This document shows, one piece after another, positions 30,683 to 64,000 of a stretch of DNA of 64,000 nt; position 1 is the first letter of the stretch, and each line of letters starts with the position of its first letter. This DNA is from Halorientalis sp. (GTDB lineage Archaea > Halobacteriota > Halobacteria > Halobacteriales > Haloarculaceae). The notes under the pieces are model-generated. The model ran no database searches. It was not told the origin of the DNA and saw nothing but the letters and a program-made list of their open reading frames with translations. The translations under genes and the position numbers were made by a program. The stretch lies in assembly GCF_028275115.1 (NCBI RefSeq), contig NZ_JAQCNH010000023.1:1-64000 (forward strand). Direction: 5' to 3'.

Positions 30683-31205
30683 TCATTGCTCGCCAACCGA
30701 CAGCAGTGTGTCAGAAGCCGTCGTTGACATTTCCGTTCGCGACCAGCAGATGTCCAACAACGGTACTGACTCGCTGTAGGTCAAAAGGGCCTGCGCCCTC
30801 CGCCCACTCGGACACGGGATCGAAAGCGAAACTGTCGACGGAGAGACAATCGAAAGCATCGCGATCAACGCCGATACACTCGCAACGCTCGGCCAGTGCC
30901 AGCGAGACCCGACTGACGTTCCGGACCACGGCGTCAGCGGACCCGTCAACCGCTTCTCGGACGTTTTTGACGTCGTAGCCGAGGACGACCACGGTAGCAT
31001 CAACGCTAAATCGTTGTATCGTCGCAGTCGCGTGTCGGACAATCGGCGCGCCCGCCCACTCGGTGCGGAGTTTGTTCTCGGCCTCGTACCTGGAGCCGAT
31101 ACCCGCCACAAGAACGACCCCGACGGCGGTCTCTCGATTACGTTCTGTCGGGCGATCGTCGGCCCCGAACGGCGGGTCGACGACCCGAAGATCACCACGG
31201 GGCAT
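30683..31205 (-). pseudogene. decayed MocA-like molybdenum-cofactor cytidylyltransferase
   Basis: From 31205 the minus strand reads a nucleotidyltransferase opening VGVVLVAGIGSRYEAENKL, matching the LAAGxSxRxGxxNKL loop of MocA/MobA proteins, then VVRHATATIQ-like and VVVLGYDVKNVREAVDG-like strands. After about residue 105 the frame loses family features. The C-terminal part that looks MocA-like continues in another frame to 30683. MocA puts CMP on the molybdopterin cofactor of xanthine dehydrogenases, so its place just upstream of a molybdenum hydroxylase operon fits. It may be dead, or a very divergent paralogue. Confidence 0.55.
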
Positions 31206-31363
31206 CGATCGTCATCCGTGAGCATGACAGGACCGTTCGTCGCGCTACCGAAGCTGTCGGTATCACGGAAACGGCAGTCTGACGACACGGATACAGATAC
31301 TACGGACCACAGACATACCGAGTCGGTTCCCCCGTCGTGAGACACGAGTTGACACGAGCAGCC

Positions 31364-31382
31364 ACACACGACAAACGTGTGT
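31364..31382. promoter_or_regulatory. inverted repeat upstream of the molybdenum hydroxylase FAD gene
   Basis: ACACACG and CGTGTGT arms are separated by five bases, 112 bp before the ATG at 31495. The arms are those of the CACACGTGTG sites elsewhere in the island, with a wider spacer. Confidence 0.5.
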
Positions 31383-31494
31383 TCCACCGTTGTAATGGTG
31401 TGTTCGACGAAGGTTTGATGATAACCGACGGCAACCGAACGGATATGTCGAACAGACGTCGCCTGGGCATGACCAAACCGAGAGGTGATGTGTA

Positions 31495-32379
31495 ATGCAC
31501 CCCGGTACGTTCGAGTACCTGAGCGCCGGGAGCGTCGGCCACGCGCTGGAACTTCTGACGGACCATCCGGACGCCGAAGTGCTGGCAGGGGGCCACAGTC
31601 TCCTGCCAGCGATCACGAATGAGGAAGTTGATCCGGACGTCGTCGTCGACGTCAGCGAAATCGACGCCATCCAAGGTGTCGAACTGCGAAATAACGTCGT
31701 CGAGATCGGTGCGGGGACCACGTACGCAGAGCTGCAAAACGTGGAGCGACTCCAGGACGATGCCACGGCAGTCGCCGAGGCGGTCAGCGTGATCGGCGAC
31801 GAGCAGGTCCGCAACTGCGGCACGATCGGCGGCAACCTCGCACACCCGGTTCGGGTGTCCGACCTGTCGGCAGCCCTTATTGCCAGTGACGCGACGATCG
31901 TCACCGTGGGGCCCCAAAGTGAGCGACGGATCGATGCCGCGGAGTTTTTTGCGCCGGCCGCGGCGACCGATCTGGCCGCCGACGAACTCCTCACGACGGT
32001 CGAACTCCCGGTTTCGGCCGGGAACACGAGCAGCGCGTACGCGAAACAGCAGAGCGCGACCATGCGGTACAGTCTGCTCGGCGTCGCGGCACATTTGACC
32101 GTGGACGGAGGACAGGTCTCGGACGTCCGTGTCGCGGCCAACGGTGTGACCGAGCGCGGTGTCGGCCTCGAACCCGTCGAGGACGCCCTACGTGGCGAGC
32201 CACTCGACGAGGACACTATCGAGACCGCGGCGAGCCGGGCCGGTGACGACATCGACAGTGCGGCGATGATAGACGACGACCAGGCGTCGGCGGCGTATCG
32301 CGCGGACCTCTTACCGATATACACGGAGCAGGCCCTCGAACGCGCCGCCGAGCGTGCCGGCGTTGACCTGGCCGCATGA
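31495..32379 (+). CDS. molybdenum hydroxylase FAD-binding subunit (CoxM/XdhB-like)
   Basis: A 294-aa FAD_binding_5/CO-dehydrogenase-flavoprotein family subunit. It passes electrons from the 2Fe-2S subunit to an acceptor. It has FEYLSAGSVGHALELL, the FAD motifs LAGGHSLLP (residues ~31-39) and CGTIGGNLAHPV (~107-118), and the C-terminal CO_deh_flav_C pattern SLLGVAAHLTVDGGQVSDVRV. Its Fe-S and Mo partner subunits are not adjacent; the best candidates are at 57.2-60.2 kb. XdhC follows 106 bp downstream on the same strand. Confidence 0.92.
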   Translation: MHPGTFEYLSAGSVGHALELLTDHPDAEVLAGGHSLLPAITNEEVDPDVVVDVSEIDAIQGVELRNNVVEIGAGTTYAELQNVERLQDDATAVAEAVSVIGDEQVRNCGTIGGNLAHPVRVSDLSAALIASDATIVTVGPQSERRIDAAEFFAPAAATDLAADELLTTVELPVSAGNTSSAYAKQQSATMRYSLLGVAAHLTVDGGQVSDVRVAANGVTERGVGLEPVEDALRGEPLDEDTIETAASRAGDDIDSAAMIDDDQASAAYRADLLPIYTEQALERAAERAGVDLAA

Positions 32380-32485
32380 GACGGGACGACTACACTATTG
32401 TGGGACCGACGACCATCGGAACCGAATTGCGTCCGGCCAGTCGTCGTGTGTCGCGAACGACGGCCTTAGGACAGCCGACCGGGAG

Positions 32486-33661
32486 ATGGTTGTCGTGACC
32501 AGCGGTGGCTGGAGTACCCCCGAGACCGACGTGATGGGGACTGTCGGCGAGGCGGTCGATGGAGCGAGGGGCGTCCTCGCGACGGTCATCGCCGTTGAGG
32601 GCAGCGCCTACCGCCGACCCGGAGCGAAGATGGTCATCGGCGACGGCAACGGCGTGGGTGCAGTCACCGCTGGCTGTCTGGAAGCCGAAATCGTCGCACT
32701 GGCCAAGCAGGTCCGCGACCGTGGACACCTACAGATAGAACAGTTCGACCTGACTGGCGGGGACGACGTCTGGGGCCTCGGCGTCGGCTGTAACGGCGTA
32801 ATCGACGTGATGCTCGAACCCCTCACGGGGGGTTACCGTCCGGTGGTCGAGGCCTACGAGCGCGGCGAGAAGACCGTCGTCCTGACCGTCGTCGACGGCG
32901 ACGGCACGACGGTTGAGCGCGGTGATCGGACTGTTCTGTTCCCGGCCGAGTCGGGGGCGGATGGCTTCGCTCTCGGCGCCCCCGACTGGCCTGACGGGCT
33001 ACTGGCCGCGCTTGAAGAACCCACCCGCAGACTCCGTGCAACGGATGCGTCCGACACCCTCACCCTGCGGTACGAGGGCAGCGTGGTCGACGTGTTCGTC
33101 GACAGCGTGACCCCACCGCCCGAACTGGTCGTCCTCGGCAGTGGCCGCGACGTCGCACCGGTAGCGCGTGCGGCGGCGCAGGTCGGTTTCGATGTGACCG
33201 TCGTCACCTTCCGTGGTGGGGCCACATCGGACGATCGGTTCCCGGCCGCCGGCCGTGTGGTGTCCACGTCCCCAGCCGACCTCCGGGACGTCGTCTCGTT
33301 CGACGCCGACACGTACGCGGTCCTGATGACGCACAATTTCGCTGACGATCGCATCGCGCTCACCGAGGTGCTGGACACACCGACCGAGTACGTCGGACTG
33401 CTCGGTCCCCGAAAGCGGTTCGAGGAGTTACGGTCCGTCCTGGCTGCGGACGGCCACCACCTCACCGACGACGAACTCAACCGTGTGTACACCCCGGTCG
33501 GACTCGATCTCGGGGGTGACACGCCGTCGCACGTCGCACAAAGCATCGTCGCCGAAGTGACGGCAGTTCACCACGACCGGTCGCCTCGACACCTGGCCGA
33601 GCGTGCCGGGCCGATCCACGCCCGGTCACCGGTCGGCGCCGAGTCAGGCGAGACAGAGTGA
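32486..33661 (+). CDS. xdhC: XdhC/CoxI family maturation factor
   Basis: A 391-aa protein of the XdhC/CoxI family, which binds the molybdenum cofactor, helps sulfurate it and inserts it into xanthine dehydrogenase-type enzymes. The N-terminal XdhC_CoxI domain has VEGSAYRRPGAKMVI and TAGCLEAEI. The C-terminal Rossmann domain has ELVVLGSGRDVAPVARAA, MTHNFADD and YVGLLGPRKRFEEL, then VYTPVGLDLGGDTPSHVA. I took the ATG at 32486 because the frame upstream is not protein-like. It lies in a likely operon with the FAD subunit. Confidence 0.92.
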   Translation: MVVVTSGGWSTPETDVMGTVGEAVDGARGVLATVIAVEGSAYRRPGAKMVIGDGNGVGAVTAGCLEAEIVALAKQVRDRGHLQIEQFDLTGGDDVWGLGVGCNGVIDVMLEPLTGGYRPVVEAYERGEKTVVLTVVDGDGTTVERGDRTVLFPAESGADGFALGAPDWPDGLLAALEEPTRRLRATDASDTLTLRYEGSVVDVFVDSVTPPPELVVLGSGRDVAPVARAAAQVGFDVTVVTFRGGATSDDRFPAAGRVVSTSPADLRDVVSFDADTYAVLMTHNFADDRIALTEVLDTPTEYVGLLGPRKRFEELRSVLAADGHHLTDDELNRVYTPVGLDLGGDTPSHVAQSIVAEVTAVHHDRSPRHLAERAGPIHARSPVGAESGETE

Positions 33662-33674
33662 CCCCGGGGCTGGC

Positions 33675-34529
33675 CTAAGTGGGCTGTCCGGACCCGTTAT
33701 CATGGCGCTCGATCGACGGTGCAGACCGGACTTCCACCACCAGGCTCCGGGTCACAATGAGATCGACGATCGTACTACTGTCCATGATTTCGGGTTCGAC
33801 CGCAGCGGGGTCGGTGTCGGAATCGTATCGCTTGACCTCGAAGGAGTTGAGCGCGTTCCGGTTCCCGGTGACCGGTTCGACCACGTCGATGTACTCGTCG
33901 GTCATCGTGTTCCGGTACGTGCTCCCCGCTTCGAACCCGACCGCCGGGACGTCGGTCGGCCACTCCCAGGCGAACTCCCGCGTGTACTGCCCGAACTGCC
34001 AGACGAGCTGTTCGATCCCGCCCCCCTCGTCCGTGGCATCTTCCGCACGGTTTCGGAGCGTCCGGTCCCAGTAGTCGACGACACAGGCCTTCATATCCGC
34101 CTGGAGTCCGTCCTCAACGAGCTTCCGTTCAAGTGGGTAGCCGATGTCGATGGAGACGATGGCGTGTTGGTCAAGATTGCTGAGGCAGTGGGGGCAGTCC
34201 ATCTCCAGCACGGAGACGTTCATCTCACCGTCCACGTTCATATGTGCGATCTCCATCGCGCAGTTCGGACACCAGAGGAACAACACGCCGTTGTCCGGCA
34301 CCGACAGCTCGTCCACGACCGCCATCTCGTCGATTGCCCGGTCCGCCGGCCGGTCCCGATCGGTCGACGTGACCGACGCCGTCGGCTCGGCACTGTCGCC
34401 CGCGAACTTCGCGAGTTCCCGGTCCTTGAGGAGGGACTTGATAACGGAATCGTGTGAGGAGTGCGACTCCGCGTCGCGAATCTCATTTATTTTCTTTTTC
34501 GTCCAGTCTCGGACGCGAATTGTGGCCAT
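33675..34529 (-). CDS. RHH-like/zinc-ribbon protein, candidate regulator of the island
   Basis: A 284-aa protein. Residues 1-42 (MATIRVRDWTKKKINEIRD and a following helix ending in VIKSLL) have the short strand plus two helices of a ribbon-helix-helix DNA-binding fold. A zinc ribbon follows (LWCPNCAMEIAH ... LEMDCPHCLSNLD, residues ~85-118), then a ~150-residue alpha/beta region with a Trp-rich segment I do not recognise. It is divergent from the amidohydrolase at 34796, and two CACACGTGTG-type sites lie between them. This makes it my first candidate for the local regulator; direct evidence is lacking. Confidence 0.6.
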   Translation of the reverse strand: MATIRVRDWTKKKINEIRDAESHSSHDSVIKSLLKDRELAKFAGDSAEPTASVTSTDRDRPADRAIDEMAVVDELSVPDNGVLFLWCPNCAMEIAHMNVDGEMNVSVLEMDCPHCLSNLDQHAIVSIDIGYPLERKLVEDGLQADMKACVVDYWDRTLRNRAEDATDEGGGIEQLVWQFGQYTREFAWEWPTDVPAVGFEAGSTYRNTMTDEYIDVVEPVTGNRNALNSFEVKRYDSDTDPAAVEPEIMDSSTIVDLIVTRSLVVEVRSAPSIERHDNGSGQPT

Positions 34530-34589: not shown

Positions 34590-34599
34590 CACATGTGTG
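34590..34599. promoter_or_regulatory. CACATGTGTG operator-like site
   Basis: It differs by one base from the perfect palindrome at 34657 and lies 61 bp upstream of the RHH-like/zinc-ribbon gene start at 34529. It may mediate autoregulation. Confidence 0.45.
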
Positions 34600-34656
34600 G
34601 TACTTCCCTGTCATCAGGGGCAGGCGGCGACGGCGTTCGCCATCGGACGACGTCCA

Positions 34657-34666
34657 CACACGTGTG
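34657..34666. promoter_or_regulatory. perfect CACACGTGTG palindrome, amidohydrolase promoter
   Basis: The extended context CCACACACGTGTGCCAC is shared with the sites at 38341 and 63695. A TATA-like TTTTTATT follows at 34685-34692, and the amidohydrolase ATG is at 34796. Confidence 0.65.
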
Positions 34667-34795
34667 CCACCTCTCTTGCCACAGAGTTTTTATTCGGTGG
34701 CCGGGGCAATCAGCGACCCGGAGAGCGCCTGTCGCCACGGGATAGCGGTGTTCACGCCGGCGGTCCCCACGAGCGGCAGTCGGACCCCGCAGATC

Positions 34796-36214
34796 ATGAC
34801 TGACCTACTGATAACGAACGGAACCGTCGTCACACAGAACGCTGACAGACAGCTCGTCTCTGGCGGCGCGGTCGCCGTCACGGGAGACCGAATCTCGGCC
34901 ATCGGTCCGGCGGAGCGCCTCGAAAACGAGACCACGCCCGACCGCGTAATCGACGCCGATGGCGGTGCGATCGTCCCGGGCCTTATTAACGCGCACACGC
35001 ACGTCTCGGATATCCTCCTCCGCGGCTCTTTCGACCAAGATCGGGGACTGTACGACTGGCTGTTCAACGTGAAGCAGGCTGCGCTGTTCGAAATGGGCCC
35101 CGAAGAGTACGAGACGGCCGCTCGCCTCTACTGCATCGAGGCAATCCGCTCAGGCACGACGACCTTCGTCGAAAACGACACCGCACTGGACTGGAACGAC
35201 CTCGAACCGACGCGGCGGAAACTCGACGTCTACGACCGGATGGGGGTCAGGAACATCTACGGTGCGGGGATCAGAGATCTTCCCGTCGACGCGGGGTTCC
35301 AGCGCATGTTCGACGAGATTACCGCTCGCGACGCCGAATCGACACATCCGGGCCCGGACACCCTCGTCGTTGACACCGAGCGGGCGCTGAACGACGTCGA
35401 ATCGCTGATCGAAGCCCATCACGCGCCCGAGGAGGGACAGTCGGTCTGGCCGGCACCTGCCACGTTGGCCACGACGACTTCGGACGCGCTCAGTGGCTCG
35501 TACCGGCTCGCCGAGGAGTACGACGTGATGACGACTGCACACGTCGCGGAAGCGGAGGCCGAAGTGAGCGAGCGGGGTGCCCTCTCCAGCATCGAGTACC
35601 TGCGCAACGTCGGCTACCTCGGCGACCGAGCGCTGCTGGGCCACTGCGTCCAGACGAACGAGCGCGACGTCCGACTGCTGGCACAGACGAACACGCCGGT
35701 CGTTCACAACTTCCGCGCGAACATGCGGATCGCGACCGGGTTCGCGCCGGTCACATCGATGCTGGCGCGGGACGTGACCGTCGGTATCGGGACGGACAAC
35801 TCGATTCTGAACGACACGATCAACCCCCTGTCGGACGCGGGCGCGGTCGCAACTGCGCACAAGGGATACCGCCGGGACTCCGGGGTCGTATCGGCACAAC
35901 AGGCGTTCGACATGGTGACCTGCGACGCCGCGGAGGCGATCGGTCGGGCCGGTGACCTCGGTTCTATCGAACCGGGCAAGCAGGCGGACATCGCCATCGT
36001 GGACCTCGACCGGCCACACCTCACGCCCTCCCCGGAACCCGTACACGCGCTCGTCTACGGCGCCAGCGGCTCCGAGGTCCGGACGGTCCTCTGTGCCGGG
36101 ACCGTCCTGCTCGAAGACCGGGAGCTGCTGGCGCTCGACGGCTCGCTCAACTCGTTCCTCGCGGAAGCCACAGCGACCGCGGACCATCTCGTCGACAGAG
36201 CGAACATCACCTGA
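34796..36214 (+). CDS. amidohydrolase, AtzA/TrzN/MtaD-type aminohydrolase
   Basis: A 472-aa metal-dependent deaminase or hydrolase of the amidohydrolase superfamily, acting on N-heterocycles or nucleoside-like substrates. Metal ligands are visible in order: NAHTHVSD (residues ~66-73), TTAHVAEAEAEV, GHCVQTNERD and VGIGTDNSILND. The C-terminal composite domain has GSIEPGKQADIAIVDL. I chose the ATG at 34796 (MTDLLITNGTVV); the frame upstream is shadow sequence. It has a CACACGTGTG site in its promoter. The substrate cannot be read from the sequence; guanine/8-oxoguanine-like, adenosine-like or s-triazine-like compounds are all possible. Confidence 0.88.
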   Translation: MTDLLITNGTVVTQNADRQLVSGGAVAVTGDRISAIGPAERLENETTPDRVIDADGGAIVPGLINAHTHVSDILLRGSFDQDRGLYDWLFNVKQAALFEMGPEEYETAARLYCIEAIRSGTTTFVENDTALDWNDLEPTRRKLDVYDRMGVRNIYGAGIRDLPVDAGFQRMFDEITARDAESTHPGPDTLVVDTERALNDVESLIEAHHAPEEGQSVWPAPATLATTTSDALSGSYRLAEEYDVMTTAHVAEAEAEVSERGALSSIEYLRNVGYLGDRALLGHCVQTNERDVRLLAQTNTPVVHNFRANMRIATGFAPVTSMLARDVTVGIGTDNSILNDTINPLSDAGAVATAHKGYRRDSGVVSAQQAFDMVTCDAAEAIGRAGDLGSIEPGKQADIAIVDLDRPHLTPSPEPVHALVYGASGSEVRTVLCAGTVLLEDRELLALDGSLNSFLAEATATADHLVDRANIT

Positions 36215-36250: not shown

Positions 36251-36649
36251 TCAGTCGTCGGCGACGGCACTGCGAATCAGGTCGCGAAACGCGTCGGGGT
36301 CGGTTTCGTACACCGTGTACCCGTCCTGACTCCGATGGCGTCCGACTGTCCCGGCCGGGTCCCCGTCGACGAGGACCGTCCAGTCGTCCCCGACCTCGCC
36401 GTTCTTACACCGGAGGGTAATGGCCACGCCGAGGTCCGCCTCCAGTTCGGCCTCGACGATGTGTTTGTACGTCCCGTCCTCGAACCGCGGGGGCTGATAC
36501 GGTGCGAGGTCCTGTGCCTCGAAGTGCTCGGCGGCACGCAGCCACCACGTGGGGACCGACGCCTCGTCCGCGTCTGCCGGCAGTCCTCTCACGTCTGGCT
36601 TCGCCCGCGCAGGGCGGTGGCCGGAGTCTTGCCGGTCGTCGTCGGGCAT
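36251..36649 (-). CDS. small hypothetical protein of the Rieske-amidohydrolase operon
   Basis: A 132-aa acidic protein. It has a polar N-terminus, a WWLRAAEHFEAQDLAPYQPP segment and a C-terminal alpha/beta part (VAITLRCKNGEVGDDW, GYTVYETDPDAFRDLI). I recognise no family. It starts 7 bp after the Rieske gene stop and is the last gene of the three-gene operon, so it is likely an accessory factor of that system. I used the ATG at 36649 because earlier codons read through the Rieske 3' end. Confidence 0.65.
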   Translation of the reverse strand: MPDDDRQDSGHRPARAKPDVRGLPADADEASVPTWWLRAAEHFEAQDLAPYQPPRFEDGTYKHIVEAELEADLGVAITLRCKNGEVGDDWTVLVDGDPAGTVGRHRSQDGYTVYETDPDAFRDLIRSAVADD

Positions 36650-36656
36650 CCGTCTC

Positions 36657-37043
36657 TCACCAGCAGACGTACACTTCGCCGTCCCGAACGAGGACGTCGT
36701 AGGTAGGCTGGCTGTACTCCGGACGAGAGAGGTGATCACCGGTCTCGATATCGAACTCCCAACCGTGCCAGGGACATCGGACGACCTGCGTGTCGTCGTC
36801 GAAACAGAGAGTCCCGTCCTCGTTCTGGGAAACTGTGCCGGTAACCGGTCCTTCGCACAGCGGCCCGCCCTGGTGGAGACAGAAGTTGCTGATCGCGAAG
36901 TATCCGTCCTCTGTGCAGTAGACCGCGACCTCGATGCCGTCTACCTCGACGAGGAGATAGTCGCCCGACTCGAAGTCGCCCGCGGAACCGACGTGATGTG
37001 CGTCCGGGGGAAGCTCGTTCTTTCCGGAGTCGGACCGTGACAT
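36657..37043 (-). CDS. Rieske [2Fe-2S] ferredoxin with long inter-motif loop
   Basis: A 128-aa soluble Rieske protein. The cluster ligands are C55-x-H57 (NFCLHQGGPLCEG) and C90-x2-H93 (RCPWHGWEFD). The 32 residues between the motifs exceed the usual 15-17 of dioxygenase ferredoxins. They match a subgroup in which the loop carries GPVTGTV and an acidic insertion. Such proteins often sit next to ACMSD-like amidohydrolases, as here (2-bp gap). It could serve that enzyme, or supply electrons to the dioxygenase at 46.7 kb, for which no other ferredoxin is present in the window. Confidence 0.9.
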   Translation of the reverse strand: MSRSDSGKNELPPDAHHVGSAGDFESGDYLLVEVDGIEVAVYCTEDGYFAISNFCLHQGGPLCEGPVTGTVSQNEDGTLCFDDDTQVVRCPWHGWEFDIETGDHLSRPEYSQPTYDVLVRDGEVYVCW

Positions 37044-37045: not shown

Positions 37046-38131
37046 TTAGTAGTCGAGTACCTCCATCGCGGTGCCGCCGTAGATGTTCTCTATCCGGTCC
37101 ACGCCGAACCCGCTTCGGAGTGTCTTATAAAGCGCATCGGAGTTGTCGAAATCTGAGTGTGGGTAATCCGAGGCGAACATGACGTTGTCAGGGCCGATCC
37201 AATCGATCACCTGCTGAACGTACGATGGGTCGTCGGCCCCCTCGATCGGCTGGGTCGTGAAATAGAAATTGTCGTCGACGTACTCACTCGGGGGTTGGCG
37301 AAGGTGTGGTGCGTCCTCGCGGCGAGCGGAGTAGTAGTAATCCAGCCTGCGCATCATGTAGGGAACCCAGCCCAGTCCGGACTCCTGAATCACGAAGTCG
37401 AGGTCGGGATACCGTTCCGGGACACCGTTGATAATCAACCGCGTCAGGTGTAGCATCTGGCCCATCGGATGACCGACGCCCCGCGCTTCTAGGAACGTGT
37501 CGATCCCCTCGAACTGGCCGGGGAATACGTGCTGGAGCGACAGGACGGAGTTGTGAATCAACAGCGGAAGGCCCGCCGCCTCCAGTGCCTCGTAGACCGG
37601 TTCGAAACGCGGGTGTCCGAGCGGATTCCGGAAGCCAGGTGGCCCGAGCATAACGCCGACGACCTCGTCGGTGTCCGCCCACTGCTCTATCTCGGCGACC
37701 GCACGCTGCGGGTCGCGCAGACAGATTCGGATCGTCCCGTACATCCCCTCCGAACTGTCGAGGAAGGTTTCGGTTACCCACTCGTTGTAGGCACTCGCCA
37801 GCGCGACGGCGTAGCGGTCGTTCTGGACTGTCACCAGATTGAGGTTGAGCCCCGGATTCAGCGTCGCGCGGTCGATGCCGAGTTCCTCCATGACCGCCTT
37901 GATCTCCGCCGATGTGGCCGCGGCGTCCGGACCGATATCGCCGCCGACCCCGTCGAGGAAGAACTTGGTCATGTTGTAGTTGTTCGGCTCCTGCACGTCC
38001 GGACGGGTCATCAGCCCTTGAAATGGTTCCTCCAGATACGGCACCACGTCGGCCTCGTTTTCTACCAGGTGAAAATCCAGGTCGACGACAGTCTCGATAT
38101 CGTCGAACGTCTGGACGGTTTGTGAACTCAT
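37046..38131 (-). CDS. amidohydrolase_2 family enzyme (ACMSD-like decarboxylase or hydrolase)
   Basis: A 361-aa TIM-barrel metal enzyme of the family that contains aminocarboxymuconate semialdehyde decarboxylase, resorcylate decarboxylases and related ring-cleavage-product enzymes. Visible motifs are VVDLDFHLVE at the N-terminus, LLIHNSVLSL, MLHLTRLIINGVPERYP, FVIQESGLGWVPYMMRRLD and FASDYPHSD near the C-terminus. It is the first gene of the operon with the Rieske ferredoxin and the 132-aa protein. It is divergent from the BMP lipoprotein across a region with CACACGTGTG-type sites. Its position suggests a step after ring opening. Confidence 0.87.
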   Translation of the reverse strand: MSSQTVQTFDDIETVVDLDFHLVENEADVVPYLEEPFQGLMTRPDVQEPNNYNMTKFFLDGVGGDIGPDAAATSAEIKAVMEELGIDRATLNPGLNLNLVTVQNDRYAVALASAYNEWVTETFLDSSEGMYGTIRICLRDPQRAVAEIEQWADTDEVVGVMLGPPGFRNPLGHPRFEPVYEALEAAGLPLLIHNSVLSLQHVFPGQFEGIDTFLEARGVGHPMGQMLHLTRLIINGVPERYPDLDFVIQESGLGWVPYMMRRLDYYYSARREDAPHLRQPPSEYVDDNFYFTTQPIEGADDPSYVQQVIDWIGPDNVMFASDYPHSDFDNSDALYKTLRSGFGVDRIENIYGGTAMEVLDY

Positions 38132-40950: not shown

Positions 40951-41276
40951 GCGACGAGTGCCGCCCAGTCGGCAAAAAACGTACTCGTGCACACGGTCCG
41001 TTTGTCCGGCATGTGGCGCTCTGTGCCGGATATGTGGCTCGTGCAGGCTGTCGGGACGCGACACACAGCAGACGTGACCCCCGTCGCGTCGAAACGACCC
41101 CACGCCGGCGATTCGGCCGCCGGAGCGTCGTCCGGTCCGGCGAGGGACTTTTTACAATTACGCGTGTCTCATATCTACTCCAAACGTACGACATACGTCA
41201 ATTTGTCTGCCACGGCAGCACCAGGACCAGAAGAAAGTTTATGAGAATGTTGGATAAAGAGTTACCACATACCGTC
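40951..41276. promoter_or_regulatory. divergent control region of the deaminase and ABC ATPase genes
   Basis: 326 bases without a gene. It has GTGCACACGG near 40987 and two ATGTGGC elements around 41009 and 41031 that echo the CACACGTGTG half-sites but are not palindromic. There are A/T-rich tracts at 41148-41160 and 41233-41243; the latter lies about 35 bp before the chosen ATPase start. Confidence 0.4.
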
Positions 41277-50719: not shown

Positions 50720-50936
50720 GCTCACCACCCGGTCGCTCTCTTCGACCGTGGCGGTGGCGAAGACGACGCGGTCGGCCAGTAGTCACAACGCTTCACCCGG
50801 ACAGTGAGACGCGTATCCATACCGGGGCTGGGGCGGGCCGGGACTAAACGGTACGGGGGGCACGGGACGTGTGCGGCGTGGACCGAGGTCGACACCGGAC
50901 ACGGCGGCCGTGGACCCGCTCCAACGCGTGTGTCCG

Positions 50937-51416: not shown

Positions 51417-51526
51417 CCCCACGTGCCACAGGTCGGCGTCTGAGTTCGATTTTGGGCTCGCATTCGAAGTGTGTCGTGCCTGCCCCCCGGTACCACTATG
51501 AGAGCGACAGGCGAATCGGCTATCGA

Positions 51527-56652: not shown

Positions 56653-57242
56653 CGTATCCTGTAACTGAACGCCTGTTAATATAGTTTGTTACGGTCCGTG
56701 TACGGTCTGTCCCCAACTCGTCGCTCCTGCGGGGCAAAACCGTCGGTAGATTAACACCCTTAGGGTGTAAATTCATGCGGCGTGCGCGTACCCAGTCCCG
56801 GGTGACTGCCGGGTACTCCGCGGGTAGCGTTCTAATAATTTATTCCACGGTCGCACTGGCATCGACGAGCAACTGCCACGGTGTTGCCACACCGTCCCAC
56901 AGATGTGTCTCCCCTGTGGCGCCAGTACCCCCAGGATTCCGTGTCCCTCCACGGCGTCGTGGAAGCTCTTTAGACGAGAAGTGCCTCCGAGAGGCCTGCA
57001 CCGACAGGCCCCCACAGGTATCCCAGCCAGCACAAAACTGCACATACAGGTAGTAATTGACTCAAAAACAAGTTGTGTGTCTTACTTTTCCATGCTAAGA
57101 TTAAAAACGCTCTCAAGCATACGTTTGGGCATGAGAGGCGTAGGAATGCCGAGTTCGGAAACCGCGTCGACGGGAGCACCCGACACGATTGAGGAGCGAA
57201 ATCGCCACAGCGTATCTGAAGGGGGTCGCTGACGGGGCTACC
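56653..57242. other. long control region between rdfA and the molybdenum hydroxylase genes
   Basis: 590 bases. A reverse TATA-like element near 56678-56688 serves rdfA. Palindromes at 56754-56768 and 56879-56894 (CGGTGT-tgcc-ACACCG) occupy the middle. Minus-strand frames between 56773 and 57045 look vaguely protein-like but have no start context or motif I trust; they may be the relic of an IS end. A/T-rich DNA at 57055-57110 probably carries the hydroxylase promoter. Confidence 0.5.
56754..56768. promoter_or_regulatory. perfect 7+1+7 palindrome upstream of rdfA
   Basis: ACACCCT and AGGGTGT arms are separated by one base, 102 bp before the rdfA start and about 475 bp before the Fe-S subunit gene. 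A binding site for a dimeric regulator is plausible. Confidence 0.45.
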
Positions 57243-57794
57243 ATGGAGGTCAATCTCACGCTGAACGGCGAGGACACGACGCTCACGGTAGACCAGTCGG
57301 ACACGTTACTCGACGCACTCAGGAACGCCGGGTACACCGGTGCGAAACGCGGGTGTGGAACCGGCGACTGCGGGTTCTGTACCGTCGTCGTCGACGGTGC
57401 GTCGGTGAAGTCGTGTCTCCAGCCTGTGGCCCGTGTCGAGGGTGCAACCGTCGAGACGATCGAGAGTCTGGGAACCCAGGACGAACTCCACCCCGTGCAG
57501 GCCGCCTTCGTCGACAACGCGGCGCTCCAGTGCGGGTTCTGTATTCCCGGCATGATCATGCGCGTGACACAGTTCCTCGAATCGAATCCCGACCCCAATG
57601 AGGAGGAGATTCGGGAGGCGCTGTCGGGTAACATCTGCCGCTGTACCGGGTATGAGAAGATTATCGACGCGGTGCAGGACGCCGCAAGTCGGTTGTCGAA
57701 CGAGAGGGCCATGGTCTCCGATGGCGGCCGACCGGTCCCGTCGGGCCAATCGTGTGTGGACTGCAGTACCTGCTCCGGTGGTGAGCGCGAATGA
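57243..57794 (+). CDS. molybdenum hydroxylase [2Fe-2S] subunit (XdhA/CoxS-like) with Cys-rich tail
   Basis: A 183-aa iron-sulfur subunit of a xanthine dehydrogenase-family enzyme. The plant-type cluster is at GCGTGDCGFCTVVVDG (residues ~38-53) with its fourth Cys at SVKSCLQP. The second cluster is at LQCGFCIPGM and ICRCTGYEKI. After the usual end near residue 160 there is an extra tail with CVDCSTC, not normal for the family. I used the ATG at 57243 (MEVNLTLNG). Its stop overlaps the large-subunit start (ATGA). The FAD subunit is 26 kb upstream. Confidence 0.93.
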   Translation: MEVNLTLNGEDTTLTVDQSDTLLDALRNAGYTGAKRGCGTGDCGFCTVVVDGASVKSCLQPVARVEGATVETIESLGTQDELHPVQAAFVDNAALQCGFCIPGMIMRVTQFLESNPDPNEEEIREALSGNICRCTGYEKIIDAVQDAASRLSNERAMVSDGGRPVPSGQSCVDCSTCSGGERE

Positions 57795-60247
57795 GTCGGA
57801 CCGAAGACGGCGACGAAAAGACGACGCCGGACGGGGCTACCCAGGCCGACGCAGCTCCGCCCGTGGAGTTCGAAGAGGAGGCCAACAATCGAAAAAAGCC
57901 GGACGAGCGAACCGCGGTTTCGAGCCGCGAAGAGAAGGCCGACGCTCGCAAAATCGTCACCGGGGAGGCGAAGTACACCGCTGACTACTCGCGGGAGTTT
58001 CCGGACCTCGCGTCGGGAAAGGTACTCCGGTCGGAGATCGCACACGGCGTCGTCAGGGAGATCGATACGAGCGCCGCCGAGGAGATGGACGGTGTCTACG
58101 CCGTCATCACCCCCGGCTCGCCCGAGGTGCCGAACGATCCATACACGTCGGCGGGGCAATCGTATCCCGAACCCTCGCCATACGACCTGCGCGTCCTGCG
58201 GGAACGGGTCCGGTACGTCGGTGATCCGATCGCGGCCGTCGCCGCCGAGGACGTCGTGACGGCCAGTGCCGCCGTGCAGGCTATCGACGTCACTTACGAT
58301 GAGCGCGACGCCGTGTTCGACGCACACACCGCGATCGAGGCTGATGCGCCGCGCATCCACGACCCCGAGAGCGTCGAGAACCACCAGCCAGGTGCCGACT
58401 ACGAGCGGAACATCGAAGCCCACGCCGAGGGAGAGATCGGCGACGTCGACGGGGCCTTCGCGGCAGCAGCGGACCGGTCGGACCTGACGGTGGTCGAGAC
58501 GGAGTGGGAGACGCCACACCAGTCCCACTGTGTCGGCGAACCGCACACGACCATCGCTCGACGCGATCAGGACGACCGCTATCAGTTCATCACCAGCACG
58601 CAGGTCCCGTATCACGCGCGCCGACAGTTGGCCCAACTGTTCGACGTGCCGATCCGAGACATTCGCGTGAGTAAACCCCGAATCGGCGGCGGGTTCGGCG
58701 GCAAGCAGTCTATCGTCCTCGAACCGATCGCCCTGGCGCTCACGATGGCCACCGACCGTCCGGTCAAGTTGGAGGCGACCCGGAAAGAGGAGTTCCACGC
58801 GATGCGGGTTCGACGTCCCGCCTCGGTGCAGGTCCGGAGCGTCGTGACCGACGAAGGTGATCTCGAAGCCATCGATATGTCCGTGCTCACCAACTCCGGC
58901 GCGTACGGGTCCCACGGACTGACGGCGTCCGGTGCCGTTGGAAAAAAGCAGCTGGCGATGTACACTCACACGCCCAACATCCGTCTCGAAATGACCGCTG
59001 CCCACACGAACCTCCCCGTGGCGGGCGCGATGCGGGGCTATGGCGCACCGCAGGGCCACTTCGCACTGGAGGGGCACATGGACACGGTCGCCCGCGAACT
59101 GGGGATGGACCCGCTTGCGTTTCGCTCTCGGAACCTCATCAGCGAGGGCGACGTCGACGTCGCGTCGAGTATCCTCAAAGAGGGCGACGGGGAGATCAAA
59201 GCCGGAGGCCGCCGGATCCGGTCGTGTGGCCTCGAGGAGTGCATCGAACGAGGGAAACGGGCGATTGGCTGGGGCGATGTCGAACAGCCGGACGCGGACT
59301 ATCTTCATCGGGGCCTCGGCGTCGCGGTAACCATCCAGAGCAGCGGCGTCCCGAACGACGAACTCGGTTCCGCACACATCAAGATGAACGAGGATGGATC
59401 GTTCATCCTCCAGACAGGTGCCGTGGACATCGGTACCGGCGCCGACACTGCGATGTCACAGATCGCGGCCGAAGTCCTCGGTGCCCGCCCCGAGGACATC
59501 CTCGTCCAGCCGTCGGACACCGACATCTCCCCCTTCGATTACGGGGCCTACGCCTCCTCGACGACGTACGTGACGGGCACAGCGGTCAAGAAGGCGGCAC
59601 AGGACGCCCGCGAGCAGCTGTTCGAGTTCGCCGCACGAATGCTCGACGAACCCCGGGAGACGCTCACTGCCCACGACGGCGCGGTGTACGCCGAGCGGAC
59701 CGGCGAGTCGGTCTCGCTCGAAGCGATCGGATACGAGTCCATCTACGGTGACGAGAAACGCGCCCAGGTGATGGGCGAAGCGAGCCACAGCACGCCCGAA
59801 TCTCCGCCGCCGTTCGGCGCGCAGTTCGCCGACGTGACCGTCGACGAACGAACCGGAGAGTTTGAGATCCACGAACTCGTCTACGCCGTCGACTGCGGCA
59901 CCGTTATCAATCCCGACCTTGCCGAGGGACAGGTCACCGGCGCGATGCACATGAGCTACGAGTTGGCGGTCGGGAGTGGCTTCTCGTTCGACAGCGACGG
60001 TCAGCCCGACGTCGTCGGGTTCGGTGACTACGGGATCCCGAAAGCAGACACCCAGCCGCCACTGACGCCCATCTTCGTGGAAACGCACGAGCCGAGCGGG
60101 CCGTTCGGCGCGAAGGCGGTCGCCGAGATTCCGACGAACGGCGTCCCACCAGCGTTGACCAACGCGATTCGTGACGCTGTCGGTGTTCGCGTCGACAACC
60201 TGCCGATCACCGCGGAGAAGATCAGGGCCGCACTCGACGCCACGTGA
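57791..60247 (+). CDS. molybdenum hydroxylase molybdopterin subunit (xanthine dehydrogenase family)
   Basis: An 818-aa catalytic subunit that hydroxylates a purine or other N-heterocycle or aldehyde at the molybdenum site. After an acidic ~45-residue extension it has AKYTADYSREF, GEPHTTIARR, the cofactor motif RIGGGFGGKQS, GAMRGYGAPQG, GTGADTAMSQIAAE, and PFGAKAVAEIPTNG with the catalytic Glu. The substrate-selecting loops do not match enough of the known enzymes for me to name the substrate. It overlaps the 2Fe-2S gene by four bases. Its FAD subunit is presumably the gene at 31495. Confidence 0.93.
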   Translation: MSRTEDGDEKTTPDGATQADAAPPVEFEEEANNRKKPDERTAVSSREEKADARKIVTGEAKYTADYSREFPDLASGKVLRSEIAHGVVREIDTSAAEEMDGVYAVITPGSPEVPNDPYTSAGQSYPEPSPYDLRVLRERVRYVGDPIAAVAAEDVVTASAAVQAIDVTYDERDAVFDAHTAIEADAPRIHDPESVENHQPGADYERNIEAHAEGEIGDVDGAFAAAADRSDLTVVETEWETPHQSHCVGEPHTTIARRDQDDRYQFITSTQVPYHARRQLAQLFDVPIRDIRVSKPRIGGGFGGKQSIVLEPIALALTMATDRPVKLEATRKEEFHAMRVRRPASVQVRSVVTDEGDLEAIDMSVLTNSGAYGSHGLTASGAVGKKQLAMYTHTPNIRLEMTAAHTNLPVAGAMRGYGAPQGHFALEGHMDTVARELGMDPLAFRSRNLISEGDVDVASSILKEGDGEIKAGGRRIRSCGLEECIERGKRAIGWGDVEQPDADYLHRGLGVAVTIQSSGVPNDELGSAHIKMNEDGSFILQTGAVDIGTGADTAMSQIAAEVLGARPEDILVQPSDTDISPFDYGAYASSTTYVTGTAVKKAAQDAREQLFEFAARMLDEPRETLTAHDGAVYAERTGESVSLEAIGYESIYGDEKRAQVMGEASHSTPESPPPFGAQFADVTVDERTGEFEIHELVYAVDCGTVINPDLAEGQVTGAMHMSYELAVGSGFSFDSDGQPDVVGFGDYGIPKADTQPPLTPIFVETHEPSGPFGAKAVAEIPTNGVPPALTNAIRDAVGVRVDNLPITAEKIRAALDAT

Positions 60248-60298: not shown

Positions 60299-60319
60299 GA
60301 GGATGTTCAATCGGCTGAC

Positions 60320-60499: not shown

Positions 60500-60527
60500 T
60501 CGCCCGGTGGGTACCCACGCGAACCCG

Positions 60528-61901
60528 TCAGCCCCAACTGGGAACCACACGGTGTCGGAACTGCCCGTGCCCCGGTTGAGCGACGATTTCGCCATCGTCG
60601 GCGACGAGGGTTCCGCGGACGAACGTCTTTTTAACCCGTCCCGTGACCTCACGCCCGTCGTATATGGAGTAATCGGCGTTCGAGTGGTTCCGGTCCGCGG
60701 AGATCGTGTCTGTCTCGCCGGGATCGAAGACCACGAGATCGGCGTCGGCGCCGGGTTCGATCCGCCCCTTTCTCGGGAGACCGAACGTGCGTGCAGGGTT
60801 GGTACAGACGAGTTCGACGAGCTTCGGATACGAGAGGCCCCGTCGGTTGACTGCCTCGTCGTGGAACACCGAGAGACTGTGCTGGAGGCCGTTCACGCCG
60901 AAGGCGCTCTCCCACCAGGGGCCGTCGTCCTTGCGACTGCGCGGCAGTGGGACGTGGTCGGTCGAGACGACCGAGAGCGTTCCGTCATCGAGGTAGTCGA
61001 ACAGGGCGTCAACGTCGCGCTCGGTACGGAGCGGCGGCGACATAATTGCGCGGTTCCCCAGGCGCTCGTAGAGTGACGCGTCGAACACGGTGTAGTGAGT
61101 ACAGGTTTCAGCTCTGACGTTGGAGCCGTCGGTCTGCACTGCCGCGATTGCCTCGGCTGCGGCTTCCGAAGTCGTGTGGACGCCGTAGTATTTGGCGTCC
61201 GCCGCCGCGGCCAGCCGCGCGACCGACCCGGCGGCCATCGCCTCGGCGTAGTCCGGCCGTGATCGTGGATAGCTGGCAGGAGATTTGCCCGGCTGCGTCG
61301 ACTTCAGCGCCTCCGTCCGCCGTTCACAGACCGAGTAGTCCTCGGTGTGGACCATTCCAACCGCCCCCACGTCGGCGAGACGCCGGAACACCTCGCCGAT
61401 GAATCCGTTCGACAGCCGGATGTCGTCCGTCGTAAACATCTTGAACGAGGTCACCCCATCTTCGACGAGTTGGGGGAGTTCGTCCAACACTGCAGCCGTC
61501 TCACGCGTTATTACCGGGTGGAGTCCATAATCGATGATCGGAGCCGCCTGGGAGCGATGTCGTTCGACGGCATCGGAGAGGGACGCCGAAGTGTCCCAGT
61601 CGCCGTCTTTCCAGCCCTGCCACGCGAAGTTCAGGAATGTCGTGACACCACCCGCGGCCGCGGCTCTGGAGCCGGTTTCGTACGAGTCGATAGAATTGTA
61701 GCCGGCGATGTGGACGTGCGGGTCGACGACACCAGGGAGGACGAGGCTCCCGTCGACATCGATCCGGTCGTCCGCCTCGGGAAAGACGTGCTCCTCGGCC
61801 ACGCCGACGATCACCCCGTCGTCGATCCCGATGGCAGCGTCGACGGTCACATCTGCCGTTACAACGGTCCCACCGGTCACCAGTGTATCGATGTCGGCCA
61901 T
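60528..61901 (-). CDS. dihydropyrimidinase/hydantoinase/allantoinase-like cyclic amidohydrolase
   Basis: A 457-aa cyclic amidohydrolase that opens a ring such as hydantoin, dihydropyrimidine or allantoin. Metal motifs are DPHVHIAGYN (HxH), the carboxylated Lys in SFKMFTTDD, GMVHTED (His), YGVHTTSE (His) and VVSTDHVPL (Asp). The binuclear zinc ligand set appears complete. The C-terminus has GRIEPGADADLVVFDPGET. In a region with a nucleobase permease and uraD, allantoin or a related ureide is an attractive substrate. It is convergent with the S17e-like gene. Confidence 0.9.
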   Translation of the reverse strand: MADIDTLVTGGTVVTADVTVDAAIGIDDGVIVGVAEEHVFPEADDRIDVDGSLVLPGVVDPHVHIAGYNSIDSYETGSRAAAAGGVTTFLNFAWQGWKDGDWDTSASLSDAVERHRSQAAPIIDYGLHPVITRETAAVLDELPQLVEDGVTSFKMFTTDDIRLSNGFIGEVFRRLADVGAVGMVHTEDYSVCERRTEALKSTQPGKSPASYPRSRPDYAEAMAAGSVARLAAAADAKYYGVHTTSEAAAEAIAAVQTDGSNVRAETCTHYTVFDASLYERLGNRAIMSPPLRTERDVDALFDYLDDGTLSVVSTDHVPLPRSRKDDGPWWESAFGVNGLQHSLSVFHDEAVNRRGLSYPKLVELVCTNPARTFGLPRKGRIEPGADADLVVFDPGETDTISADRNHSNADYSIYDGREVTGRVKKTFVRGTLVADDGEIVAQPGHGQFRHRVVPSWG

Positions 61902-62076
61902 CAGTCAGGAGTGTCGCCCCTGGCCAATAGGTACGACGGGTACAGTGGCGTTCGAGAGCGACGCGCTGCCGATTTCATGAGGTCTCATCGTGAGAAGCGA
62001 CAGGCTACGAGTACTTATAATCTCGAACGACACAGACAGTGTGGGCATATGTATTGTGCTGAGCGGGCCCGTCCGA

Positions 62077-63495
62077 TCAGTCGTCGTCGGTCGCCGAGCT
62101 CGGGTCAGGTAGGTCTTCACCCGCGTTGGCCGGGGTCTCGGGGGCGAGTCCGGTGGTGTGCTCCGTGGGGCCGGCGCCGACGCCACCACCGGGGATCACG
62201 ATATTGAGCAACAGCGCAGCGAAGCCGCCGGTAACGAGCGCGGAACCGAACAGCGTCTGTACTTCGCTGGGGAACTGCTGTAGAATCTCCGGCCGGAACG
62301 CGACGCCGAGTCCCAGTGCCATCGACAGCGCGAGGATCGTCGAGTTCCGATGGTCCAGCGTGACGTTCTGGGTAATGAGCCGAGCCCCGGAAGAAAAGAT
62401 CATCGCGAACAGTATCAGCGCACCGCCACCGAGCACCGCATCGGGCATCGCCGAAACGATGGCTCCGACTTTCGGGACGAACCCGAGGACCAGAAGCACG
62501 CCGCCGCCGATTCCCACGACGTACCTGCTCGCGACGCCCGTGAAGTTGACGAGGCCGACGTTCTGTGAGAACGAGGTGTTCGGGAGCGCGTTGAACACCG
62601 CGCCGAACGCGCTCATAACGCCGTCGGCGAGGAGGCCGCCGCGCATCTCTTTTTCCGTTGCGTCCCGACCCGTTGCGGAGACGGTCCCCGAGATGTCACC
62701 GATGGTCTCCATGCCCGTAATCAGGTAGATGAACGCCACAGTGACGATCGCGCTCGGTTCGAACGCGAGTCCGTACTTCAGCGGCACGGGAACGGTAATC
62801 CAACCGGCAGCGGAGACGGCTGATAAGTCCACGACACCGAGCGCGAATGCGGCGACGTATCCGACAGCGATGCCGACGAAGACGCTGATGACCCGGAGGA
62901 ACCCCTCAAAGAACTGATTCAGCACGACAGTCACGACGAGAACCAGTCCCGCGAGTCCGAGGTTCGTGAACGACCCGTAACCCGCCGCCGAGGGCCCGGC
63001 CGACGCGCCCGCGGCATAGTTCATACCGGTCGGAATCAACGTCAGCCCAATTAGCATGACGACGATGCCGGTCACGAGCGGTGGGAAGTACTCACGGAAC
63101 CGGTCGAGTGAGACGCCCATGACCATCTCCACGGGTGCGGCAATCAGTGCGGCACCGAACACCGCTGCGATCCCGAACTGGTTCCCGACGGCGATGAGGG
63201 GCCCGAGAAACGCGAAACTCGTTCCCATGACGACGGGAAGTTTCGCCCCGACCGGCCCGATGGGGAACGCCTGAACGAGGGTCGAGACACCGGCGACGAT
63301 CAGTGCCATCTGGACGAGGAACGTCGTCTCGCCCGTGACCGATCCGACCGCACCAGCGAGAATCAGCGGCGGCGCGACGTTCCCCAAAAACATCGCCAGT
63401 ACGTGCTGGATGCCGAGCGGAACCGCTTCCCCGAGCGGTGGTTTGTCTTCGATGTCGTACAGTACGACCGAACTGCCGTCGTTCGAACTCGCCAT
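62077..63495 (-). CDS. NCS2-family xanthine/uracil permease
   Basis: A 472-aa membrane protein with about twelve to fourteen helices of the nucleobase:cation symporter-2 family. It has QHVLAMFLGNVAPPLIL, GTSFAFLGPL, ETIGDISG in the middle, and the substrate-site loop ALPNTSFSQNVGLVNFTGVASRYV. These fit purine (xanthine or urate) transporters better than uracil ones. The ATG at 63495 opens on a control region with a CACACGTGTG site that it shares with uraD. This is the second uptake route in the island beside the BMP transporter. Confidence 0.93.
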   Translation of the reverse strand: MASSNDGSSVVLYDIEDKPPLGEAVPLGIQHVLAMFLGNVAPPLILAGAVGSVTGETTFLVQMALIVAGVSTLVQAFPIGPVGAKLPVVMGTSFAFLGPLIAVGNQFGIAAVFGAALIAAPVEMVMGVSLDRFREYFPPLVTGIVVMLIGLTLIPTGMNYAAGASAGPSAAGYGSFTNLGLAGLVLVVTVVLNQFFEGFLRVISVFVGIAVGYVAAFALGVVDLSAVSAAGWITVPVPLKYGLAFEPSAIVTVAFIYLITGMETIGDISGTVSATGRDATEKEMRGGLLADGVMSAFGAVFNALPNTSFSQNVGLVNFTGVASRYVVGIGGGVLLVLGFVPKVGAIVSAMPDAVLGGGALILFAMIFSSGARLITQNVTLDHRNSTILALSMALGLGVAFRPEILQQFPSEVQTLFGSALVTGGFAALLLNIVIPGGGVGAGPTEHTTGLAPETPANAGEDLPDPSSATDDD

Positions 63496-63694
63496 GCGCC
63501 ATACTGCTAAATCACATTACTTCAAATCTCTGTTTATTCACATAATATACGGATGTGTGCCTCGGAAAGTAGGTCAAAATAACTTTTTCGTTTGAATTTA
63601 TCGGCTGAAATCCAACAAACCAGGTGAGCGGCGAGACGAAGCTCACCGCAGGCCAGACGTCTGCCGGGTCGTCCCGTTTCCTGGCACACTGTCA

Positions 63695-63704
63695 CACACG
63701 TGTG
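63695..63704. promoter_or_regulatory. perfect CACACGTGTG palindrome between permease and uraD
   Basis: Its context GTCACACACGTGTGCCACAG, followed by a T-rich run, nearly repeats the one at 34657. It is 97 bp before uraD and 200 bp before the permease start, so it could control both. Confidence 0.65.
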
Positions 63705-63791
63705 CCACAGTTTTTGTGTCGGTGATGTGGCCGGTTCAATCGGGACCCGATGCGAGCGATTAAGTGGTGGATGGGTAGAAACCGCTGATGG

Positions 63792-64000
63792 ATGAGTGAA
63801 TACACGATCGAGGACCTGAACGAACTCGACGAGGCGTCCTTCGTAGAACTCTTGGGCGGAATCTACGAGAACTCGCCGTGGGTCGCGGAACAGACCTGGC
63901 CGGACCGGCCTTTCGATTCCCTCGACGATCTCCACGAGCGTATGCGGAGCGCTGTCCGGGAGGCTCCACGGACGAAACAGCTCGCCCTCCTGCGTGCCCA
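63792..64000 (+). CDS. uraD: OHCU decarboxylase, 3' end beyond window
   Basis: 69 codons of 2-oxo-4-hydroxy-4-carboxy-5-ureidoimidazoline decarboxylase, which converts the urate oxidation product to (S)-allantoin. The start reads MSEYTIEDLNELDEASFVELLGGIYENSPWV in pieces: FVELLGGIYENSPWVAEQTW is the family hallmark, then a helix and QLALLRA, leading to the HPDLG motif that should come next. I used the ATG at 63792; one at 63788 meets a stop after three codons. It implies a urate-to-allantoin pathway; a uricase gene is not seen before the edge. Confidence 0.88.
   Translation, partial: MSEYTIEDLNELDEASFVELLGGIYENSPWVAEQTWPDRPFDSLDDLHERMRSAVREAPRTKQLALLRA

Follow-up and report, generated by a model that had tools for sequence, protein, structure and literature searches.

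A purine-type catabolic island of Halorientalis in which urate genes are joined to a separable Rieske dioxygenase unit

The window studied here is a stretch of 64,000 nucleotides from Halorientalis sp., the opening 64 kb of contig NZ_JAQCNH010000023.1 (87,671 nt), and positions above 64,000 are given as contig coordinates. It carries a catabolic island in which urate-degradation genes stand together with an alpha/beta Rieske dioxygenase. Gene families were assigned by profile search (Pfam, NCBIfam), which recovered all the families named in the initial annotation of this DNA, and the named families sit in open frames with a high G+C content at third codon positions. The limits of the island, placed at 30683 and 64000 in that annotation, have to be moved. 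Because a Pfam search of 30683-31387 gave zero matches, the start is set at about 31.5 kb, and the island extends from 31,495 (FAD subunit gene) to 67,862 (DUF3830 gene), thereby gaining, beyond the window, the rest of uraD and the genes of uricase, HIU hydrolase, an M20 allantoate amidohydrolase-like enzyme and DUF3830. From about 68 kb onward, the G+C content falls from 0.61-0.66 to 0.51-0.54. Riboswitch control of the island was considered and rejected, an Rfam search of 28000-64000 having returned zero matches at the gathering threshold.

The purine half is concentrated in one stretch, from 57,189 to 67,862. On the forward strand, the 2Fe-2S subunit of a molybdenum hydroxylase (57189-57794; PF01799 and PF00111) is followed by its Mo-binding, XdhA-like subunit (57791-60247), and on the reverse strand by an allantoinase/dihydropyrimidinase-like amidohydrolase (60528-61901) and an NCS2 xanthine-type permease (62077-63495). 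Then come the OHCU decarboxylase gene uraD (63792-64292, forward strand, interrupted by the window end at 64000; PF09349), uricase (64663-65631; PF01014), HIU hydrolase (65628-65978; PF00576), the M20 allantoate amidohydrolase-like gene (66075-67352; PF01546) and DUF3830 (67383-67862; PF12903). The gene set leading from urate to allantoate is complete, directly downstream, and all the members that characterize a haloarchaeal urate island are present, namely uricase, HIU hydrolase, OHCU decarboxylase, an allantoinase-like enzyme, an M20 enzyme and an NCS2 permease. The permease exceeds the cut-off of TIGR03173 (pbuX; 439 against 414 bits). The 60528 amidohydrolase scores 331 bits with TIGR02033 and 282 bits with TIGR03178, both below cut-off, and is predicted to be an allantoinase. 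The FAD subunit gene (31495-32379, forward; PF00941 and PF03450) overlaps that of an XdhC-type maturation factor (32354-33661, forward; PF13478 and PF02625). The domains of the xanthine dehydrogenase family are present in the hydroxylase, despite scores under the equivalog cut-offs for both the Mo subunit (NF043082, XdhA; 652 against 780 bits) and the FAD subunit (XdhB; 144 against 310 bits).

Uricase was detected in 36 of the 391 genomes of the class. For the 31 that lack a close relative of the dioxygenase, up to 20 kb on each side of uricase was compared with all island genes. These counts are lower bounds, several stretches stopping at contig ends and two being one-sided; the identity floors were 45% for AH1 (see below) and 40% for the aldehyde dehydrogenase and the importer genes, and aldehyde dehydrogenase relatives at 36-37% were left uncounted. 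All 31 islands contain uraD, and at least 30 contain HIU hydrolase, 30 a 60528-type enzyme, 29 the M20 gene, 28 DUF3830, 27 the NCS2 permease, 20 the Mo subunit (some copies being merely 26-42% identical), 17 AH1, 11 an adenine deaminase and 6 a BMP protein. Some of the contigs were identified as plasmids of Halomarina, Natrinema versiforme, Halalkalicoccus jeotgali and Halocatena salina. In print, a full haloarchaeal purine route has been proposed for Haloferax volcanii HVO_B0299-B0310, in terms that its authors call highly speculative (PMC8305020), and the urate-to-allantoin genes of a puc cluster have been reported for four haloarchaeal genomes (PMC3623002). Recurrent in haloarchaea and covered by these reports, the purine half thus belongs to a type of island already known as a prediction. 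The H. volcanii and puc clusters share with the present island uricase, HIU hydrolase, a uraD-type gene (pucL2), allantoinase-like and M20 enzymes, Cox/xanthine dehydrogenase-type subunits and an NCS2 permease. No Rieske dioxygenase is named in the available excerpts of these two reports, whereas the present island adds an oxygenase unit and a BMP-type importer.

Upstream of these genes lie three deaminase-type hydrolases and the importer. AH1, an AtzA-related COG0402 amidohydrolase with an Amidohydro_1 domain (34796-36214, forward; start predicted inside the open reading frame 34595-36214), has the atrazine chlorohydrolase AtzA as its best solved match (286 bits over nearly full length, all others at 145 or less) and reaches 113 bits with the guanine deaminase equivalog TIGR02967, whose cut-off is 375. 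On the basis of pathway need and of its recurrence in purine islands (17 of the 31 plain uricase islands), it is a putative guanine-type deaminase. Haloarchaeal purine islands often carry relatives of AH1, which is itself nearer to AtzA than to other solved deaminases. A cytosine-deaminase/AtzC-type amidohydrolase (39709-40950, reverse; start predicted) matches PRK07572 at 255 bits, below cut-off, with AtzC and CodA as solved matches. The third hydrolase, a COG0402 enzyme (45067-46395, reverse; start predicted) resembling 5'-deoxyadenosine/S-adenosylhomocysteine deaminases by its solved matches, scores 384 bits with NF005557 (cut-off 522). An s-triazine pathway, which the AtzA-like and AtzC-like hydrolases could evoke, was not adopted, given the presence of AH1 in plain uricase islands; the genes scanned in the island included no cyanurate hydrolase. 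The ATP-binding cassette (ABC) importer comprises, all on the forward strand, a BMP/PnrA-type substrate-binding protein (38507-39586; PF02608), an ATPase (41013-42950; PF00005 in two stretches, the true start being probably further in) and two permeases (42947-44059 and 44052-45050; PF02653).

The dioxygenase genes follow on the forward strand: the alpha subunit (46731-48101; PF00355 and PF00848), the beta subunit (48098-48628; PF00866) and u48631 (48631-49122), a third protein with no Pfam or NCBIfam match. Next to them are found a GMC oxidoreductase (49166-50728, reverse; PF00732/PF05199), a cupin (51003-51416, forward; PF07883), an aldehyde dehydrogenase (51452-52969, forward; PF00171) and u53063 (53063-54088, reverse), which has no Pfam match. 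Alpha residues C93, H95, C113 and H116, H219, H224 and D374, and D216 are unchanged in all 30 aligned relatives; these are presumably the Rieske ligands, the iron ligands and the bridging aspartate, respectively, as in the family at large. With cofactor residues intact and a beta gene adjoining alpha, an alpha/beta Rieske dioxygenase is encoded here. It scores only 240 bits with the HcaE equivalog NF042946 (cut-off 830), outside this subfamily of known substrate, and the pocket residues specific to its clade, including GGWGG at 315-319, are not informative on the substrate. Cupin residues H61, D63, E67 and H101 are invariant in six of six sequences. In u53063, two helix-turn-helix-like stretches can be discerned by eye in the alignment, making this protein a probable regulator.

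A second oxygenase is probably encoded at 37046-38131 (reverse), by a PF04909 (Amidohydro_2) gene labelled ACMSD-like in the initial annotation. Among solved PF04909 proteins, its product matches best 8sm7 (159 bits), 8sm9 (142), 8sm6 (134), chain B of 6m1w (124) and 8sm8 (121). Chains of 6m1w, 6m2i and 8ful, which we take to be AibH1H2, lie at 104-124 bits, the best decarboxylase at 77 and the ACMSD entries at 25-28. The four 8sm structures are named as amidohydrolase-related dinuclear oxygenases (AROs) in PMC10811679, where the class is recognised by a PF04909 gene with a small Rieske gene within three coding regions, and where the site is made of three histidines and three carboxylates. Here, a Rieske ferredoxin gene (36657-37043, reverse; PF00355, motif C55-x-H, C90-x2-H) directly adjoins, the closest solved relatives are AROs, and six candidate ligands, D19, H21, H193, E250, D322 and H325, assigned from the count given in that paper, are kept in five of five printed alignments. 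The decarboxylase assignment is rejected on these scores, and the protein is probably an ARO, even if another oxygenase, PtmU3, reaches just 58 bits, under the best decarboxylase. Another PF04909 gene of the contig (71755-72879), devoid of the DYPH motif and of the glutamate, was rejected as a second ARO. Relatives of the 37046 protein (E <=1e-20) occur in 96 of 391 genomes, at no more than 45% identity among the matches listed, G168 excepted; AROs are not new in haloarchaea, since members are shown in a figure legend of PMC10401708. The unit is completed by u36251 (36251-36649, reverse; start predicted), a small protein with no Pfam match, adjoining the same two genes in genomes G168 and G199; a fold search with its model (predicted local distance difference test, pLDDT, 76; three sequences) gave no significant match. 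The AibH1H2 and SfbO systems (PMC10811679, PMC10401708) share with this predicted ARO the PF04909 protein beside a small Rieske ferredoxin and the six candidate ligands; the third small gene, u36251, distinguishes the unit of the window.

How far the dioxygenase and the urate genes belong together was addressed across the class. Close alphas (at least 54% identity) occupy eight places in six of the 391 genomes: two on the window contig, one each in G168, G068, G276 and G126, and two in G199. Four further genomes of the same genus (G058, G086, G110, G230) gave no match. G168 is probably the genome of H. regularis; the alpha is 95% identical to the copy of Halorientalis regularis TNN28 and 94% to that of H. 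pallida F13-25. G068, G276 and G126 are taken as Haloferacaceae, like Salinigranum, because match coordinates in G323, a member of the same family (f4), coincide with those on the S. rubrum plasmid. Five of the six genomes possess uricase, each time 13-17 kb from an alpha, an overlap with a hypergeometric probability of 2.8e-5 when kinship is ignored. On a 321-kb plasmid of Salinigranum marinum, the two genes are 9 kb apart; the orthologues there are annotated pucL, uraH and uraD, with malate synthase beside them, and the island also contains RidA, an adenine deaminase and two genes annotated as 5'-deoxyadenosine deaminase.

The gene order from the FAD subunit to DUF3830 is conserved in G168; H. 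pallida, for which only 21 kb was covered, retains the order between the ABC ATPase and Mo genes. Most of the gene set is found, reordered, in G068, G276, G126 and S. marinum. The three-subunit hydroxylase of the initial annotation is present, but 25 kb separates its FAD gene from the two partner genes. Relative to the G068 island, that of Halorientalis has a block (34.6-53 kb) between u53063 and u33675 (33675-34529, reverse; no Pfam or NCBIfam match, kept in the G168 and G068 islands), which explains this distance; in G276 and G126, the FAD, u53063, 2Fe-2S and Mo genes adjoin one another. When seven dioxygenase islands were compared with the 31 uricase islands lacking a close dioxygenase, the cupin and u53063 were found in 7/7 versus 0/31. 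The GMC oxidoreductase and the aldehyde dehydrogenase are present in three of the seven, in Halorientalis only, with a 54% identical aldehyde dehydrogenase in G199, and the ARO and its ferredoxin in two, H. pallida being covered here too over its 21 kb. In G068, G276, G126 and S. marinum (four of four), RidA stands directly upstream of alpha; one of the G199 alphas also has it as a neighbour, and the 31 other islands gave a single partial match. The set is kept while its order changes, and the association is not due to chance: dioxygenase and purine island are truly joined, and the arrangement persists across at least three genera belonging to two families. Halorientalis groups with G276 and G126 in a rapidly built uricase tree (SH-aLRT 97), which suggests that the island was transferred between families; the placement of G068 and S. 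marinum in this tree is not settled. As for regulators, S. marinum has an IclR protein in addition to u53063, and relatives of this IclR are seen in 26 of the 31 other uricase stretches.

The preferred reading, given an even chance of being right, is that of a composite purine island to which a separable oxygenase unit has been joined, feeding a modified or amino-substituted purine-like N-heterocycle into the urate route. Homology and recurrence speak for the base pathway; the substrate of the dioxygenase and the place of this enzyme in the pathway are inferred. The BMP-type importer and the NCS2 permease would import purine nucleosides and bases, which the COG0402 deaminases (AH1 of the guanine type, the 45067 enzyme of the deoxyadenosine type) would turn into hypoxanthine and xanthine. 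The molybdenum hydroxylase would then yield urate, and uricase, HIU hydrolase and OHCU decarboxylase would lead to allantoin, which the 60528 and M20 enzymes would carry through allantoate towards glyoxylate and ammonia. The oxygenase unit, with a core of alpha, beta, third protein and cupin, and with RidA and a second deaminase as extras in Haloferacaceae, or the ARO, Rieske ferredoxin, GMC oxidoreductase and aldehyde dehydrogenase in Halorientalis, most likely oxidises a purine-like or amino-substituted N-heterocycle unusable by the plain pathway, such as an alkylated or otherwise modified purine. The product could be an unstable imine or enamine, handled by RidA, or an aldehyde, handled by the aldehyde dehydrogenase, and the remainder would join the xanthine/urate route. 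A more specific version, held tentatively and thought somewhat unlikely, is that alpha/beta, u48631 and the cupin, with RidA where present, dihydroxylate a purine-type or amino-substituted ring, RidA hydrolysing the resulting imine or enamine; this would constitute an O2-dependent, dearomatising entry into the urate pathway.

Several observations weigh against the preferred reading. Nearly all enzyme assignments score under the NCBIfam equivalog cut-offs. No close dioxygenase was found in 31 of the 36 uricase genomes, and the linear order of the initial annotation (deamination, hydroxylation, ring dioxygenation, opening) finds no direct evidence. The Halorientalis islands yielded no RidA, and those of G068, G276, G126 and S. 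marinum no ARO, Rieske ferredoxin, GMC or aldehyde dehydrogenase gene; because of this split between island groups, no single full route is conserved. Dioxygenase units also exist apart from urate genes. Right after the purine island, at 68,703-84,989, a second catabolic set of low G+C comprises its own alpha and beta, a u48631 relative, deaminases, an ordinary PF04909 protein, an aldehyde dehydrogenase, a BMP importer and an AH1 relative, with no urate genes; a search of 80 kb of G168 for its alpha matched only the island's own copy. G199 (C1) gave no uricase match in the class search, and its alphas are surrounded by two amidases, HyuA/HyuB-type hydantoinases, an arginase-family protein, a distant molybdenum hydroxylase, AH1, a BMP importer, an aldehyde dehydrogenase, an ARO unit and glycine cleavage genes. 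In that genome, the hydantoinase, amidase, arginase-family and glycine cleavage genes possibly form a route to glycine. Since the two units occur apart, the dioxygenase is dispensable for urate breakdown, and the existence of urate-free units means that the link of the oxygenase unit to AH1 and the BMP importer is no looser than its link to uricase; the importer always accompanies this unit, as does an AH1-type gene wherever the sequence sufficed. The purine and oxygenase units are separable, yet repeatedly joined. The neighbourhood survey proposed with the initial annotation has a double outcome: the set recurs in other haloarchaea, and its units also occur separately, which is in part the outcome named there as refuting the proposal.

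A rival explanation is that the dioxygenase unit is a separate pathway for carbocyclic aromatics, a mere passenger beside purine genes on plasmid-like, rearranging DNA, of which the 321-kb plasmid of S. marinum is an instance. Among solved structures, the nearest relatives of alpha are naphthalene, phthalate and phenylpropionate dioxygenases, whose substrates are hydrocarbons and aromatic acids, a point that also counts against a purine-like substrate; most uricase islands have no close dioxygenase, and urate-free units exist. This explanation is nevertheless thought unlikely. The joining persists in two families in spite of reordering, the urate-free units retain the AH1-type deaminase and the BMP importer, and the island genes scanned yielded neither an extradiol or intradiol ring-cleavage family nor a dihydrodiol dehydrogenase, but only the cupin, GMC oxidoreductase and aldehyde dehydrogenase. 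In addition, in a tree of 30 alphas, the six from uricase islands form one clade (92/87), whose sister is a group (99/98) made of the second alpha of the window contig and the two G199 alphas, with G299 next. The other 20 haloarchaeal alphas split off at 100/100 from this clade and its four nearest relatives, and no uricase was found around them in stretches of 7-20 kb.

Alternatively, the substrate could be hypoxanthine or xanthine itself, whose hydroxylation by the dioxygenase would bypass xanthine dehydrogenase in an O2-dependent manner. A precedent is found in the hpx cluster of Klebsiella, where HpxDE is a Rieske-type oxygenase among purine genes (PMC7373994), and the 68.7-85 kb set has deaminases and an importer with no molybdenum hydroxylase in view. 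HpxDE is likened to the window enzyme by gene context; the latter is of the alpha/beta naphthalene/phenylpropionate type and is accompanied by a full set of xanthine dehydrogenase-type subunits. Indeed, the Mo and 2Fe-2S genes are present in all seven dioxygenase islands, so that no bypass is needed there, and this possibility appears distinctly improbable. The same low probability is granted to a set for N- or C-dealkylation of methylated purines, as performed by NdmA/NdmB, in which the aldehyde dehydrogenase and GMC oxidoreductase would oxidise the released fragments and methylpurines would enter as xanthine. The island does hold a second, ARO-type oxygenase with an aldehyde dehydrogenase, and one characterised ARO begins an O2-dependent dealkylation (PMC10811679). 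NdmA/NdmB, however, align to alpha over the Rieske domain only, at 25 bits or less, and the ARO, GMC and aldehyde dehydrogenase genes are those missing from the G068, G276, G126 and S. marinum islands.

The reading of a joined oxygenase unit has a parallel in lumichrome (riboflavin) catabolism, in which a xanthine-oxidase-like enzyme precedes an alpha/beta Rieske dioxygenase acting on an N-heterocycle, and in which a cupin is involved (LumJ and LumABCD; PMC12746152). Unlike that system, the window island shows no P450 or extradiol dioxygenase among the genes scanned, and has urate genes instead. No report of the dioxygenase/purine-island combination was found in the open-access literature searched. 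The purine-type island claimed in the initial annotation thus holds as far as its importers, deaminases, molybdenum hydroxylase and alpha/beta dioxygenase are concerned, which are conserved as a set in two families; its novelty as a whole does not, the purine half being already published. A pair of genes at 54215-56652 within the island, for an SMC-like coiled-coil ATPase and RdfA (PF21811), is not metabolic; the pair recurs in the G068 island, with weaker relatives near uricase in G080, G281 and G279 and near the G199 unit. A short open reading frame at 23243-24004 contains a Cas12f/TnpB-type nuclease domain (PF07282).

The third protein, u48631, can be considered independently of the purine context. 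A profile built from 17 relatives, searched against whole genomes, retrieved 46 places in 36 of the 391 genomes, 43 of them within 3 kb of an alpha gene; all 17 profile rows come from dioxygenase loci, which biases the profile to such copies. Reciprocally, 43 of 46 haloarchaeal alphas of the naphthalene/phenylpropionate type (above 200 bits, down to 34% identity) have a u48631 gene. Its C-terminal half matches proteins of 75-84 residues encoded after the dioxygenase beta gene in Thermus thermophilus, T. oshimai and Geobacillus plasmids, where they are annotated as hypothetical or as 'dihydrodiol dehydrogenase'. The predicted structure (pLDDT 81) consists of two repeats, each of four strands followed by helices. 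A Foldseek search linked it weakly with repeats of Pur-alpha (probability up to 1.00, E 4.2e-5); with a TM score of about 0.27-0.32 and a root-mean-square deviation of 13.5-16 A, a Pur-alpha fold was not retained, and the model would have at most a repeat-level likeness. The window copy has zero cysteines and so is not a cysteine-bound iron-sulphur carrier. As the simplest guess, u48631 would be dedicated to these dioxygenases, acting in assembly or coupling.

Whatever the fate of the purine reading, u48631 is a candidate for a missing dioxygenase component, and the ARO assignment corrects a decarboxylase-like label. The islands also supply defined gene sets in culturable strains. Were the dioxygenase to act on a purine-like ring, purine catabolism would gain a new type of reaction and the alpha/beta Rieske enzymes a wider substrate range. 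Should the more specific dihydroxylation proposal be true, no earlier alpha/beta Rieske dioxygenase would have had a purine-like nucleus as its target, and u48631 would be an unrecognised third component of dioxygenases of this sort.

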